From Alcanivoracaceae bacterium (GTDB lineage Bacteria > Pseudomonadota > Gammaproteobacteria > Xanthomonadales > Marinicellaceae), in NCBI GenBank assembly GCA_016744455.1, contig JADGEI010000020.1, forward strand, positions 1 to 64,000: DNA of 64,000 bases, written 5' to 3'. A model generated the notes under the pieces. It was not told the DNA's origin and searched no databases. It saw nothing but the letters and a program-made list of their open reading frames with translations. This document shows, one piece after another, positions 21,475 through 28,348 of this stretch (positions are counted from its first letter, which is position 1; the number at the start of each line of letters is the position of its first letter). Position numbers and translations under genes: made by a program.

Positions 21475-24400
21475 ATGTACACAAACTTTAACAATAAATC
21501 CCTATTAGGCCTATTATTTCTTATTTTTATTGCCATGACAAATGCAGTTTGTGCCAAAGAAATACCACAACAACTCGAACAATGGAAAGACTGGGTGAGC
21601 TATAAACAAGAGTATAATAATTGCCCTTACTTTTACAACAATCAGGCAAAATCATCACATGTATGTGCGTGGCCAAAAAAACTTAAATTAACCATTAATA
21701 ACAATCAGGCACAATTTCAAATACGCTGGGAAATCTTACAAGACAGTTGGGTTCCATTACCAGGTGATAAAAAATCCTGGCCACAAAATGTTGTAAGTAA
21801 TAACAAAAAACAAGTGGTGCAAAGGTCGAATAATCATCCAAGAATATACTTAGAAAAAGGCAGTTATAGTATTACAGGTCAATTTAAATGGGAAAAAAGA
21901 CCGGAATCTATAAGCATTCCTGTAGAAATTGCTGGTATAGATTTAAGTGTAGATGCCAAGCGTATAAATTTCCCTCAAAGGAAAGGGAAAAGTTTATGGT
22001 TGGGAGAAACACGTGAATCGAAAAAAACAGAGTCTAATAAGACAGAAATTTATGTCAATCGTTTGATTATTGATGGCCATCCTATGTCGATGTTAGTAAA
22101 TATGCAGGTGTATGTTTCAGGTTCAGCACGCAATGAAAAGTTAGGGAAAATTGGCAATGAATTATTGCAAGTTAACTCTATTGAAGGTGAAATTTCATCT
22201 TATATTGATGGTGATGGTTACCTGTGGGCGCAATTGAAACCAGGAAGCTGGAAAATAGATATGAGTTTTACAGTGCTCAATTGGCCCGAAAAAATCAGCT
22301 TTAATCCTGAAGGTGATTTTTGGCCCAATCAAGAGGTTTGGGCTTATCAAGATGATAAAAATATTCGCCTGACACAAATTAAAGGGGTAAGCCCGATTAA
22401 TCCTGAACAATCTGACACCCAATGGGATGAAGTGCCTAATTATTTAATCAACTCTGGTGATGTCTTTGAAATTAATGAAACAAAGAGAGGTACACTTAAC
22501 CAAAATGCGCAACTTGACTTAAATCGGACCATTTGGTTGGGGTTTGATGGAGAAGTGTATCGTAGCAGAGATCAAATTTCTGGTCAAAAACTGGATACTT
22601 GGCGCCTAAATAGTGTCGATGGTTACAAATTGTTAAGTGCAAAAAACAATGATGAAGACCTGCTTATCACTCTTTCTGAAGAGGATGAACAAGGAATTGA
22701 GTTGCGAACACCAGAAATTAACTTAGAGGTGAATGGAGAGTTTGGTGCAAGCATCAAAAATACCATTAATCCTTGGCAAACACGTTTTGAATCTATCCAA
22801 TCAAAACTTTATCTACCCTATGGATATATGCCGTTTGCTGCTGTTAGTGTTGACAAAACTCATGGTGTTTGGTTAGAAAAATGGAAATTATGGGATATAT
22901 TTATTGTTATGTTATTAACTGTATTTTGTTATAAAGCTATGGGCGTTAAATCAGCAGTTGCAGCGCTATTTACTTTGGTTTTGGGTTACCATGAGCTCAA
23001 TATGCCACTTATAGCTTGGGCTAATGTGGTGTTAGTCATTGCATTAATGTCTGTTTTGAATAATGGCAAACTTAAATCAATGGCTCAATCTTATAGTTAT
23101 ATCAGTGTCATAACCTTGTTGGTTGTCCTGACACCTTTTATTATTAATCAAGTCAGGCTAAGTATGCATCCGCAATTAGAAAGTCGTTTCAATCAAAGCA
23201 TCAATTGGTCTGCTGTGAAAAAATCACCGCCAAATGCAATGAAAAAAAAGTTACCGCAACTCAATAAATCGTATCAGCAATCCTATAGTAATCGAGTTCC
23301 TCAACAGGAAGCTTTAGATGAAAAAGAAACATTAGATAGAATTGTGGTAACAGGTTCTCATATAAGAAATTCTGATTTAATCAACCGTTATCAAACTGGA
23401 AGCATTCTACAAGCGGGAAAGGGTGTGCCGCAGTGGAGCACTAATAGGGTTTCACTGCAATGGGATGGTCCAATTAACACTCAACAAACTTATAAATTGT
23501 TGGTTGTGCCGCCTATACTAAGGGTGGTTTGGCGCTTATTGTTGGTATTCTTTTCTTTGTATTGGTTGGTCTTATTGTTGCAACGTTTAAAAACAACTAG
23601 AGCAAAACCATTAAATACCGCTACAAAAACCGCAACGGCAATGGTGTTTTTGGTTATTTTTGTTCTGTTACCTCAAGCTCATGCACAAGATTATCCATCA
23701 CAGGCTATGTTAGATGAATTACAACAAAGGGTTTACCAAGAGTACCCTTGCAAAAACAATTGTGCTTCATTGAATAAAAGTGAAGTGTTGGTGGATAAGT
23801 ATAAGTTGTCGATGAATCTAACTATTCACGCTTTTGAAAATGTTATTGTGGCCTTGCCATTTTCTAAGGATTGGCGAGTGGAAGAAATTAGTATTGATGG
23901 TAGTATTGAGAAAAGTAAAATCCATCATAAAAATATTCCATGGATTAAGGTTGGTAAAGGCATAAATCACGTCAAGATTACAGGACTCATTGCTAACCGC
24001 ACGAGTGTATCTATCCAATTCCCTATGAAGACGGGAATAATTTCTGCACAAGCAAAGGGGTGGCAAATAGCAGGAATCGACGGTACGATTTTAAATAATA
24101 ATACCTTACAACTTATATCAACTAAACAGCAATCAGGCTCAGATGAAGAGTCAAAAACAACAGATATTCAGCCATTCGTACATGTTACGCGTTCAATTAC
24201 TTTTGATGATGATTGGTATGTTAATACATTAGTAGAACGATTGGCGCCTACTAAAGGCGTGATAAATGTCGCGATACCAATGATTGAGAATGAAAGCCCA
24301 ACCACCGAAGTTAAGTTTGATGAACAAGGCAAAATTATTGTGAATTTAGATGCCACACAATACGAATACAATTGGCTATCTCGAATTGATCGTACTCCAG

Positions 24401-25560
24401 AAGTGGCTCTCATTGCAGCTGAAAATGACTACTATTTGGAAACATGGAAAATTTTATCTTCGCCTCAATGGAATGTCGAAATAACAGGTTTGAGTATAGT
24501 CTCATCACCCAATGTGTTAGATGAGTTAGATGATTACTTTACCCACATCTACAAACCACGACCAAATGAAAATCTTAATATCAAAATTTCAAGACCAAAA
24601 CCGTTAGCAGGAGATATAGTTTCAATTGAATCAGTAGATAATAGGTATACCGTCGGTAAAAGAGCCACTAAAGTTAAAACGAGTATTCATTATCGAGCAA
24701 CACAGGGAGGAAATTTTAAAATTTTACTTGATGAATTGGCAGACGTTAATAGTGTTGCTTATGATGGTGTAGAGTCGAGCCTTACCACTGATAAGGGGGT
24801 TGTTGAAGTTGGGTTTTTACCAGGTGCTCATAAAGTAGTTGTGGATTGGCAAATGAGTCAGTCACTAGGTCTGATTGCTCAGACACCATCTATCCAATTG
24901 GAAAATAGCATGGTTAACATCAATCAATCAATTAACATTCCAAGAAGTCGCTGGGTTTTTTATGGCTATTCTAAGGGGTTTGGACCTGCATTTTTGTATT
25001 GGGGAGAATTTATATTCTTTACAATCTTGGCTTTTTTCTTGGCACGGCTTCCTTTATCCATACTGAATTTTTGGCAATGGCTAGTTTTGGGATATGCATT
25101 TGGTACGGTTTCATGGTTTGCTTTTGGTGTTGTGACTTTTTGGTTGTTTTTTGTTGGTTGGAAATCTCAAAATCCAAATCATGCAATCAACCTCAAAAAT
25201 ATACTAATGCAATGGGCAACTGTCATTATAACTTTTATTGCTATTTCTGTCTTTATCGGTTCTGTCGCCTTCGGATTGCTGTCATACCCACGTATGGGAA
25301 TCATTGGCCAAGGTTCGTCCGTCAATAGTCTACACTGGTTCTTAGATGCCCATCAAAACCAATTGCCAGCAATCACTATAGTCAGTTTACCTATATGGTG
25401 GTATAAAGCCATTATGCTAGTTTGGTCTATATGGGTTAGTTTTTCTTTGTTAAATTGGTTGAAAAAATTGATTGGTTCTTTAGACAAAGACTTGTGGTGG
25501 AAAAAAACAAAATCTAAACCCTCTATTAAAAAAGGTGAAAATAAGAAAGGCTCTACATAA
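21475..25560 (+). CDS. large multi-domain envelope protein with internal TonB-box-like segment
   Basis: I do not recognise this 1361-residue protein as a named family. A signal peptide (about 1-27) leads to a beta-rich periplasmic region (to about 470). About four membrane helices follow (about 478-570), then a periplasmic loop, another helix (about 685-705), a hydrophobic segment ending AHAQ (about 723-742), a second beta-rich domain, and a C-terminal cluster of helices (about 1175-1340). In the loop, residues 618-635 (LDRIVVTGSHIRNSDL) closely resemble the TonB box and plug start of TonB-dependent receptors. AGGAAA precedes the ATG. It is divergent from aspS and convergent with a kinase gene. 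A scaffold or transport-coupling role is only a guess. Confidence 0.75.
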   Translation: MYTNFNNKSLLGLLFLIFIAMTNAVCAKEIPQQLEQWKDWVSYKQEYNNCPYFYNNQAKSSHVCAWPKKLKLTINNNQAQFQIRWEILQDSWVPLPGDKKSWPQNVVSNNKKQVVQRSNNHPRIYLEKGSYSITGQFKWEKRPESISIPVEIAGIDLSVDAKRINFPQRKGKSLWLGETRESKKTESNKTEIYVNRLIIDGHPMSMLVNMQVYVSGSARNEKLGKIGNELLQVNSIEGEISSYIDGDGYLWAQLKPGSWKIDMSFTVLNWPEKISFNPEGDFWPNQEVWAYQDDKNIRLTQIKGVSPINPEQSDTQWDEVPNYLINSGDVFEINETKRGTLNQNAQLDLNRTIWLGFDGEVYRSRDQISGQKLDTWRLNSVDGYKLLSAKNNDEDLLITLSEEDEQGIELRTPEINLEVNGEFGASIKNTINPWQTRFESIQSKLYLPYGYMPFAAVSVDKTHGVWLEKWKLWDIFIVMLLTVFCYKAMGVKSAVAALFTLVLGYHELNMPLIAWANVVLVIALMSVLNNGKLKSMAQSYSYISVITLLVVLTPFIINQVRLSMHPQLESRFNQSINWSAVKKSPPNAMKKKLPQLNKSYQQSYSNRVPQQEALDEKETLDRIVVTGSHIRNSDLINRYQTGSILQAGKGVPQWSTNRVSLQWDGPINTQQTYKLLVVPPILRVVWRLLLVFFSLYWLVLLLQRLKTTRAKPLNTATKTATAMVFLVIFVLLPQAHAQDYPSQAMLDELQQRVYQEYPCKNNCASLNKSEVLVDKYKLSMNLTIHAFENVIVALPFSKDWRVEEISIDGSIEKSKIHHKNIPWIKVGKGINHVKITGLIANRTSVSIQFPMKTGIISAQAKGWQIAGIDGTILNNNTLQLISTKQQSGSDEESKTTDIQPFVHVTRSITFDDDWYVNTLVERLAPTKGVINVAIPMIENESPTTEVKFDEQGKIIVNLDATQYEYNWLSRIDRTPEVALIAAENDYYLETWKILSSPQWNVEITGLSIVSSPNVLDELDDYFTHIYKPRPNENLNIKISRPKPLAGDIVSIESVDNRYTVGKRATKVKTSIHYRATQGGNFKILLDELADVNSVAYDGVESSLTTDKGVVEVGFLPGAHKVVVDWQMSQSLGLIAQTPSIQLENSMVNINQSINIPRSRWVFYGYSKGFGPAFLYWGEFIFFTILAFFLARLPLSILNFWQWLVLGYAFGTVSWFAFGVVTFWLFFVGWKSQNPNHAINLKNILMQWATVIITFIAISVFIGSVAFGLLSYPRMGIIGQGSSVNSLHWFLDAHQNQLPAITIVSLPIWWYKAIMLVWSIWVSFSLLNWLKKLIGSLDKDLWWKKTKSKPSIKKGENKKGST

Positions 25561-25606: not shown

Positions 25607-28348
25607 CTAAGGAAGGATTTTGATTAATTCTTTGTAGATAGCATCAAAATCATCAGGGTTTTGATAATATTTTGATAGTAATGTATTTTTAAGGTCGATA
25701 GATTCCTGAAACTGTTGGTTTGCTTGGTATGCATTGATGAGTAATAAAGCAATTTTTTTATGGTAATGACTATTGTTGATTACAACTGGAATGGTTAACA
25801 AAGGTTTCAATTCAATAATAGCAAGATTGCTTTGTTGGTTTTTTAGGTAGTTCTCGGCAAGAGTGGCTTGAAGGCCTACTGTTATTGAAAACTCTTCCCC
25901 TAAAAACTTTTTACTTCTTATCAATGCTTTTTTGCCTATTGAGATGGCATTACTGTAATTGCCAGTCAAGCTATAAGCTTTACAAAGGCTCAATGCAACA
26001 TAGAGTGTTGCTTGGTGGTTTTCTCCCAATTGTTGTAATTGTGATTGGTATAATGGCAGGAGTATTTCAATAGCTTTTTCACCTTGCTGTGCTTTGATTA
26101 AATAGACTGATAATGTTGTTTTTACCTGATTAGTTTCAAAATGATTTTTGCCGAATGTTTTTTCATAAACAGTGATGACTTGCTCTAATGTTGAAATTGC
26201 CTGCTGAATATTGTTTTCAATAAAGGCAATTTGCGAAATAAGTAAGTCAACATGAGCGCTAAGCATATGGTCTTTTCCAAAACTGCCTAGCGCTATTTTT
26301 TGGGCTAAAGCAGCATACTTTTTTGCATTTTCAATGTCATTCGTAGCTTTTAGAGTAAAACCATATTGTAAATAGGATTGAGCTACTATCGGGTGTTTTT
26401 TACCATACAGTTTTATTTGCTTGTTGATAACTTCTGTATATATATCCTTGATTTTTTGATAAGGTGTTGGGTTGATATTTGTGAGTGTGTCAGCTAGTAA
26501 TTTTAATAATTGGCTACTTGATGTAGATAATTCACCAAATGTTCTATGACTTAATGATAGTGTATTTTTAAGGGTTTTTACTGCTTTTTCAGGCTCGCTT
26601 TTATCGGTTAAAATGTGTGCTAAAATTATATTTCCTTGAATTACTTGTGGTATTAACTTTTGCTTAGTAGCATCTGAGATTGCTTGATTGACAATTTTTA
26701 TGGCATCGTCAAACAGGCCTTGTTTATTTAATAATTTGACTTCAATGTGCTGAAGTTGTAATGATTGAGGCTTTGATAAGCTTGTTATGTTTTTTAGTAA
26801 AGCAAGCATTTGGATTTTGGTTTTATCAAATAAGTTTTGAGCTAAGTAAAGCTGAGCCAAACTCAATCGTGCATCGTAATTATTATGATCTGATGCGATA
26901 GCTTTTAAAAGTAGTTTTTCTGCTTGGTAATATTCACCAACTTTGGCCAATGCTGTGCCAATAGTTTGTTCAAGAGAAGAAGTGAGTAAAGGGTCTTGTA
27001 ATGAAGTTTCTTGTATCTTAACTCTAGCATTTATTAAAAACTCTTTGACTGACACATCTTTACCTTTAGTAGTGTCAGGATCACTGGCTTGGATTGATTC
27101 TAATAAAAAATTGGTTACTTGATTTGCTTTCCTTGCTTCATATTCTGCAATATTCATTTGGCTAAACATAGCCAATAATGAAAAAACAATGGCTGATAAT
27201 AAAACAGTGACAAAAAATGATGATAAAGGGTTTCTTTTTATGAATTTTTTAATTAGGTAAAGTTTTGTTGACCTTGTTGCTGTAACAGGTCTTGATGATT
27301 GCCAGTTTTGCAAGTCATGTTTTAACTCTAATATGGATTGGTATCTGTCATTAGGTTTATAAGACAATCCTTTTTTTATGATATTTGCTAAATCGGAATC
27401 AATTTTTGATTGGCTTAGTTGTTTGTAGAAGCGAGCTTGAATAATCGAATAATCATAACTATCCTCGTGTAGGTTTATTAATGGTTTCTTCTCTGTTAAC
27501 AATTCTAACAATAGGGCACTGAAAGAATAAATATCACTACTAATAGTGATTATTCCCTTTTGGACTTGCTCTGGTGATGCGTAACCAGGTGTATAAATTT
27601 CCTTATGTGTTGAGCCTTTTTTGTTTCCTTCTATTTCAGTAATTGTAGCAATGCCAAAGTCAACTAAATAAGGCGTTCCTTGCGAATCAACTAGGACATT
27701 ACTGGGTTTTACGTCTTTATGGACAACCAGTTGTTGATGAGCATAGTTTATGGCACTGGCTACAGGTGTTATTAAGTTAATTATTTCGTTACAGGTTAAT
27801 TTTTGCTGTCTACAATACTTGTCAATTGTTTTGGTGTCCTCGACGTATTCCATGACCAAATAAGGTATGCCATCTTTTGAGATTCCACCATGATGAAAGG
27901 AGATAATATTTGCATGATTTAGTTTAGATAAGGTTAATTGCTCTTGATTAAAAAGTACTTTTAATGATTCATTTAAATTTTGAGAGTTAGTTGACAGTAG
28001 CTTTAATGCAACGTGTTTTTGAATGGAAGTAGTGGTTCTTTTGGCTTTGTATACGTGCGACATACCACCTCTTCCAATTTGGCATAAAAGAAGATAGTCC
28101 CCAATGGTTTTGCCAGATAAATCAGGCATCTTATTCAAGGTACTGAAATAGGACAAATCTGCATTATCTATGGATGTTGACTCTATGGCCTGAGCTTTAA
28201 TTAATCGTTTTAAAATAGCTTTTACAGAGGTAGAAATATCACTGTCACTATCCACTTGTTGCAATGTTTTTGGTATGGGTTTGTCGATGTATTTTTCAAA
28301 CAACTCATAAGCAAGTTGCCAATCTTCTACTGTAAACTGTTTAGGCAT
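25607..28348 (-). CDS. membrane Ser/Thr kinase with TPR domain, HKD catalytic loop (module 2)
   Basis: Hanks-type kinase of 913 residues, similar in plan to the module-1 kinase: N-terminal helical segment, Gly loop IGRGGMSHVY (91-100), Lys K116, DFG at 230-232 and SPEQ near 258. One membrane helix (about 375-393) precedes a long TPR region to the C-terminus. The catalytic loop reads VVHKDVKPSN (H210, K211, D212), so the usual Arg of HRD is Lys. Such kinases usually do not need activation-loop phosphorylation. The ATG shares a base with the stop of the upstream sigma gene (TAATG), so the two are tightly coupled. Confidence 0.87.
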   Translation of the reverse strand: MPKQFTVEDWQLAYELFEKYIDKPIPKTLQQVDSDSDISTSVKAILKRLIKAQAIESTSIDNADLSYFSTLNKMPDLSGKTIGDYLLLCQIGRGGMSHVYKAKRTTTSIQKHVALKLLSTNSQNLNESLKVLFNQEQLTLSKLNHANIISFHHGGISKDGIPYLVMEYVEDTKTIDKYCRQQKLTCNEIINLITPVASAINYAHQQLVVHKDVKPSNVLVDSQGTPYLVDFGIATITEIEGNKKGSTHKEIYTPGYASPEQVQKGIITISSDIYSFSALLLELLTEKKPLINLHEDSYDYSIIQARFYKQLSQSKIDSDLANIIKKGLSYKPNDRYQSILELKHDLQNWQSSRPVTATRSTKLYLIKKFIKRNPLSSFFVTVLLSAIVFSLLAMFSQMNIAEYEARKANQVTNFLLESIQASDPDTTKGKDVSVKEFLINARVKIQETSLQDPLLTSSLEQTIGTALAKVGEYYQAEKLLLKAIASDHNNYDARLSLAQLYLAQNLFDKTKIQMLALLKNITSLSKPQSLQLQHIEVKLLNKQGLFDDAIKIVNQAISDATKQKLIPQVIQGNIILAHILTDKSEPEKAVKTLKNTLSLSHRTFGELSTSSSQLLKLLADTLTNINPTPYQKIKDIYTEVINKQIKLYGKKHPIVAQSYLQYGFTLKATNDIENAKKYAALAQKIALGSFGKDHMLSAHVDLLISQIAFIENNIQQAISTLEQVITVYEKTFGKNHFETNQVKTTLSVYLIKAQQGEKAIEILLPLYQSQLQQLGENHQATLYVALSLCKAYSLTGNYSNAISIGKKALIRSKKFLGEEFSITVGLQATLAENYLKNQQSNLAIIELKPLLTIPVVINNSHYHKKIALLLINAYQANQQFQESIDLKNTLLSKYYQNPDDFDAIYKELIKILP

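Follow-up and report, generated by a model that had tools for sequence, protein, structure and literature searches.

On balance, a short segment of a 1361-residue inner-membrane protein, encoded in the stretch of DNA analysed here (64,000 nucleotides, the window), appears to be a TonB box that is used as a portable short linear motif outside receptors; its host would then be a putative TonB client or regulator. We observed the box in a hypervariable linker, conserved at the protein level and shared with unrelated envelope proteins. TonB is viewed as the power cable of outer-membrane receptors, hijacked by bacteriocins and phages, and the known TonB boxes belong to outer-membrane receptors or bacteriocins. 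The gene and its features are listed in window coordinates; the topological assignments are predictions.

21475..25560, + strand: 1361-residue inner-membrane protein with signal peptide, two large periplasmic regions and about 10 TM segments (ORF, hydropathy)
21475..21558, + strand: signal peptide region, residues 1-28 (KR-rich start, hydrophobic centre at residue 18)
21556..22893, + strand: first periplasmic region, residues 28-473, conserved (alignment and hydropathy)
22897..23145, + strand: TM1-TM4, centres near residues 484, 502, 519 and 548 (averaged hydropathy)
23146..23493, + strand: periplasmic loop, residues 558-673, which holds the hypervariable linker with the motif (hydropathy, linker comparison)
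23326..23379, + strand: TonB-box-type motif ETLDRIVVTGSHIRNSDL, residues 618-635 (DNA translation, profile, receptor-trained matrix)
23332..23355, + strand: core box L620-D-R-I-V-V-T-G627 (fits tLDXVXV, with I for the first V, and the core L..[VI].[VI][TS][GA])
23386..23436, + strand: conserved RY-x-QAGKGVPQW element, about 20 residues after the core (invariant Q646, G648, P652, W654)
23515..23685, + strand: TM5-TM6, centres near residues 690 and 728, with a KR-rich cytoplasmic turn between them (averaged hydropathy)
23686..24984, + strand: second periplasmic region, residues 738-1170 (averaged hydropathy)
24988..25452, + strand: C-terminal TM bundle (averaged hydropathy)

The topology was derived from averaged hydropathy and K/R counts over 27 aligned orthologues (alignment A1). 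Because KR-rich turns flank it on both sides, the loop of residues 558-673 was placed in the periplasm, a prediction from composition; hydropathy, K/R counts and the hypervariable linker together predict a flexible, exposed periplasmic segment for the motif. At E ≤ 10 the protein matched no family of either Pfam or NCBIfam. A Plug domain (PF07715) was detected neither in the window protein at E ≤ 10 nor in the 27 orthologues at E ≤ 1, and the Pfam comparison of the same proteins returned no barrel family; in place of a 22-strand outer-membrane barrel about 10 hydrophobic TM segments are predicted. The identity of a TonB-dependent receptor (TBDR) was rejected for this protein, which has the TonB box but neither Plug nor barrel family. 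A CreD-like inner-membrane protein was discarded by Pfam comparison only, CreD not being among the matches of the window protein and the 27 orthologues. The sequence-only reading had located the motif between membrane helices of a protein devoid of a β-barrel, and the TM4-TM5 loop agrees with this.

A PDB sequence search gave nothing below E = 0.9. AF2 models were computed from a two-row alignment (window and L069, a homologue at 31% identity from Thalassocella blandensis that was recovered in a single-sequence scan). The first periplasmic region was modelled with poor confidence (pLDDT 42.5); the second was β-rich at pLDDT 53.4, and in Foldseek its model gave TM-scores ≤0.22 in all rows listed (oligosaccharyltransferase subunits, M1 peptidases and others), too low to count as a match. 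No neighbour gene was conserved across 46 wide loci, the window included, and therefore gene context supplied no functional hint. The product of the next gene in the window (25607-28348) resembles a serine/threonine kinase and is rich in repeats in its C-terminal half; similar ORFs are found elsewhere in the window. Homologues of the 1361-residue protein turned up in 43 of the 151 relatives; at the level of the order 117 of 398 genomes had one, and at that of the class 55 of 369. The order is probably Lysobacterales/Xanthomonadales, and the family Marinicellaceae. The gene is patchy: among ten other genomes of the window's genus a single one (G007) carries it. A gene remnant was seen in G014 (C28:15381-15808), where the match is confined to the first ~60 and the last ~90 residues, which lie roughly side by side as though the part between them had been deleted.

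The motif ETLDRIVVTGSHIRNSDL is located in the hypervariable periplasmic loop between TM4 and TM5. Residues 618-635 had been named correctly beforehand; the string quoted for them, LDRIVVTGSHIRNSDL, comprises residues 620-635. The TonB-box consensus of Xanthomonas campestris (Xcc) is given as tLDXVXV in the available part of its source (PMC1790865); the window reads TLDRIVV, with I623 in place of V, followed by TG. When run against the window's genome, a 22-residue motif profile (A2), which includes the window segment itself, matched this segment at E = 2.4e-9, with a TBDR alongside at 1.3e-9. With a matrix built from TBDR boxes alone the window linker scored 29.3 bits, and the best of 14,900 shuffled linkers 14.0 bits. 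Thus, the description of the segment as a near-standard start of a TBDR was borne out. The label 'plug-like' did not hold for this protein: a Plug domain is missing, the plug-like half is weak, and downstream of SHIRNSDL the sequence passes into the family's own RYQ..QAGKGVPQW element.

We then cut the linkers from 150 of 151 deduplicated orthologues and removed one duplicate, which left 102 from the order and 47 from other orders of the class. From TM4 to the QAGxGxPxW element the linker is hypervariable, A/P-rich and fast evolving. In an unsupervised alignment of 27 sequences VTGSR was the sole run of residues above 50% in this variable stretch. The core L..[VI].[VI][TS][GA] was found in 59 of the 102 order linkers, against a mean of 0.1 and at most 2 in 500 rounds of shuffling, and in one of the 47 linkers from other orders; 43 order linkers were without it. 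The receptor-trained matrix, built on 31 training segments of which a few were still out of register, placed 68/102 order linkers and 2/47 others above a 1% shuffle threshold. An earlier run, with a noisier training set and the window counted twice (L061), gave 49/103 and 2/47 at the same threshold. The distance from the end of the core to QAG had a median of 19 residues (interquartile range 18-20). As the linkers share ancestry, these counts demonstrate non-chance, not a number of origins. A/P-rich, fast-evolving linkers might be expected to produce a chance or low-complexity resemblance. The counts refute this, since 59 cores face 0.1 expected and the window segment has the profile E-value given above (segment included in the profile); we regard such a resemblance as practically dismissed.

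Absence of the motif from close homologues had been named in advance as the finding that would tell against it. This did not occur: of the 9 orthologues in the window's family that keep the linker, counting the window's own, 8 have the motif at E ≤ 1e-3 (G000, G007, G012, G021, G023, G027, G028, G032). One close relative, the G025 orthologue (L005), has lost it. From this loss and from the 43 order linkers without the core it follows that the box is not essential everywhere. Many distant relatives retain LxxVxVT[GA] while RIxRxD is lost, which points to a TonB box rather than a plug.

The wording of the box follows the receptors of its lineage. Two receptors of the window's genome read EELDRVVVTGSRIRRLDLE and VELDRVVTTGTHIRATDLE, respectively. 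The second shares the histidine of the window's SHIR, as do the G007 orthologue (SHIT) and, within the genus, a β-propeller lipoprotein (THIK) and a macroglobulin (THIT); arginine stands at this position in other receptors of the genus. Receptors of the sister genus g3 have the form EEQGKITVTGSRIKRSD, and an orthologue of the 1361-residue protein there reads e.g. IEEQGKITVTGSRIKRAD. In general, TBDR boxes of the same genus are close or identical in wording to the box of the 1361-residue protein. In G012 the motifs of orthologue and receptor were identical at 16 of 18 residues, yet only 6 of these 16 were encoded by the same codon. Codon agreement between orthologues and receptors of g3 was 0.45 within the same genome (8 pairs) and 0.40 across genomes (92 pairs). 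In the window's genome the nearest receptor motif (L031) shares 11/18 residues and 8/11 of those codons, a higher match on a smaller number. Codon agreement in g3 is about as high between genomes as within them and so gives no indication of recent gene conversion. By the G012 codons the box is not a recent copy of a receptor gene. The box is conserved at the protein level while its codons drift.

How might the box have reached the linker? In two orthologues (L219:2550-2657 and L223:2781-2888) it is followed by plug-strand-like residues such as VETASPVLTIDR. Sixteen linkers were long enough for a plug-strand test, that of the window being too short; the score after the box was reached in 0/500 shuffles each for L219 and L223 and in 1/500 for L082. 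Given the plug-strand residues behind the box in L219 and L223, capture of receptor gene 5' ends is plausible as its source, with subsequent selection on the box. New copies of the box may thus come from a captured receptor-gene start and may afterwards be kept by selection. The same plug-strand residues, together with the fact that some orthologue linkers are without a recognisable box, would also suit a mere relic, i.e. a receptor 5' end pasted into a tolerant linker and now drifting. We consider this unlikely. A drifting relic is at odds with protein-level conservation under drifting codons without a clear same-genome codon excess, with the constant place of the box ahead of QAG and with retention of the same tag in several families. 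Hence, the 'relic of fusion' proposed earlier is possible as an origin; as the whole story it fails, the box being kept while codons drift.

The tag is not restricted to receptors and to this inner-membrane protein. A search of the 33 family genomes with a degenerate EQGKI(T/M)VTG pattern gave 31 sites; these were spread over 18 genomes, all of g3, and the reversed pattern gave 0 sites. Thirty of the 31 sites came with a locus. By reading, 20 were TBDR N-termini, 5 orthologues of the 1361-residue protein, 2 YfbK-type vWA lipoproteins, 2 anti-sigma-like single-TM proteins and 1 an alpha-2-macroglobulin lipoprotein. Six of the 20 receptor sites were checked and all six had Plug; most look like one receptor group and are not 20 independent cases. 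Thus, in g3 the pattern is common to receptors and to four unrelated non-receptor families. Searches with profile A2 gave a similar picture. In six genomes of the order it matched orthologues of the 1361-residue protein in 6/6, plus receptors, and in two of the six also YfbK-type and anti-sigma-like proteins; one match, the lipoprotein start L288, had no significant Pfam match and was assigned by context. In the 33 family genomes we counted 85 rows at E ≤ 1e-3: 8 orthologues of the 1361-residue protein, 6 YfbK, 8 anti-sigma-like proteins, 1 macroglobulin and 2 β-propeller lipoproteins (PF09826); the remaining 60, of which a sample was checked, were mostly receptor-sized or receptor-like. As a specificity control, 76 of 80 phylum genomes had no match at E ≤ 1e-3.

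YfbK N-termini that were chosen regardless of the motif contained [VI]TG[ST] in 7 of 29 parsed loci (of 30), and 6 of these 7 fall among the 12 of the window's family. The window's genome has an operon (L294, G000:C40:534000-540000) of a YfbK-type vWA lipoprotein, an ECF sigma factor and an anti-sigma-like single-TM protein. The anti-sigma-like protein carries the box-like HELDNIMVTGLRKSD (A2 E = 1.6, not significant alone), and the YfbK has a degenerate form only. In complete anti-sigma-like linkers the position of the box wanders between 56 and 141 residues from the C-terminus. In two genera an alpha-2-macroglobulin lipoprotein (L368:2242-7989 and L415:814-4488) has the box in the stretch that separates its A2M_BRD domain from its A2M domain, worded as in the respective genus. 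In two β-propeller lipoproteins of the window's genus (L409:1653-3653 and L410:1380-3362) it lies just ahead of the propeller. Two further proteins, both without a Pfam match, were noted: a 255-residue periplasmic protein with a box right after the signal peptide (L289:3556-4320, G323) and a 170-residue lipoprotein with DKITVTGTHL and a weak profile score of E 0.027 (L418:1191-1700, G026). Taken at the sequence level, the segment would be a lineage-tuned TonB box common to several non-receptor envelope proteins and not a one-off decoy.

The pattern would also be explained by any periplasmic factor other than TonB that reads the N-termini of receptors. The box could be the recognition site of another periplasmic hub, such as a protease, chaperone or assembly factor, with TonB not being the reader. 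The hosts have in common only exposure in linker-like envelope segments, the box wanders in the anti-sigma-like linkers, and the two macroglobulins bear it where the protease-bait segment lies. The best-conserved part, LxxVxVT[GA], is however the type of box proven by mutation in the receptor DdvT: in its IIVT box V42A and T43A each reduce uptake and the double mutant abolishes it, as stated in the accessible part of the report (PMC6874591). In addition, the window's genome has 8 TonB_C and 13 Plug matches, and each of the four genomes tested holds 7 to 8 and 13 to 37, respectively. We rate another hub as rather unlikely.

A TonB decoy or sponge deserves mention as well. There, the box would limit the supply of TonB or compete with box-bearing bacteriocins, and the host would not be energised. 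The inner-membrane side, the placement in a loop and the same tag on several proteins are compatible with this, and TonB boxes do occur in non-receptors, namely in colicins and related bacteriocins (PMC11658791, in the part available). But a conserved host of 1361 residues is needless for a decoy, which makes this quite improbable. Bacteriocins are secreted weapons that use TonB for entry, whereas the hosts of the box described here are resident envelope proteins.

A genuine TonB-contacting segment, as also proposed in the sequence-only reading, would be the best reading of the motif; for contact with ExbD, offered there as well, nothing spoke for or against. It resembles the TonB boxes of TBDRs (Xcc tLDXVXV, DdvT IIVT) in its core, its periplasmic exposure and its linker-like context. 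It differs from them in its host, a multi-pass inner-membrane protein that has neither plug nor barrel, and in its internal position instead of one at the mature N-terminus. FecR-type anti-sigma signalling with TonB-dependent transducers is comparable to the operon of the window's genome in the ECF sigma factor and the single-TM partner. Unlike in FecR systems, the anti-sigma-like partner itself bears the box, and the partners tested had no Pfam match, hence no FecR match. Force transducers of the vWA type, with a fold related to YfbK, have been linked to TonB/TolA-type motors; this is a motor box on an inner-membrane-tethered vWA protein, i.e. another route than a TonB box, and the phrase 'TonB box' is absent from the main text of that paper as far as it was available (PMC12204202). 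Among the papers listed in a PMC literature search was no report of a TonB box in YfbK, a macroglobulin or such an inner-membrane protein.

With the segment as a TonB box, the following mechanism can be envisaged. The C-terminal domain of TonB, which is anchored in the inner membrane, would take up the box as an additional β strand, in the manner known from receptors. TonB might then dock on, or pull, the 1361-residue protein via ExbB/ExbD, and the protein would be a TonB client or a sensor of free TonB. We know of no precedent for TonB pulling on an inner-membrane protein. Points against are the 43 order linkers without the core, the box-less close relative, the degenerate YfbK of the window's own genome, the insignificant score of its own anti-sigma-like protein and the patchy distribution of the gene.

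A further step, possible though not probable in our view, is that TonB is a general periplasmic hub in this order. One shared, co-evolving box would dock receptors as well as this inner-membrane protein, the vWA lipoproteins, the anti-sigma-like partner of the ECF sigma factor, the macroglobulin traps and the β-propeller lipoproteins. In this case, the sigma/anti-sigma-like operon would sense the free, energised TonB that is left by the receptors. If true, the circle of TonB partners would grow, with a receptor-type box kept in an inner-membrane protein and at least four further non-receptor families; the motif search would be a direct route to more partners, and a simple hypothesis would be at hand for how the cell senses its demand for TonB.
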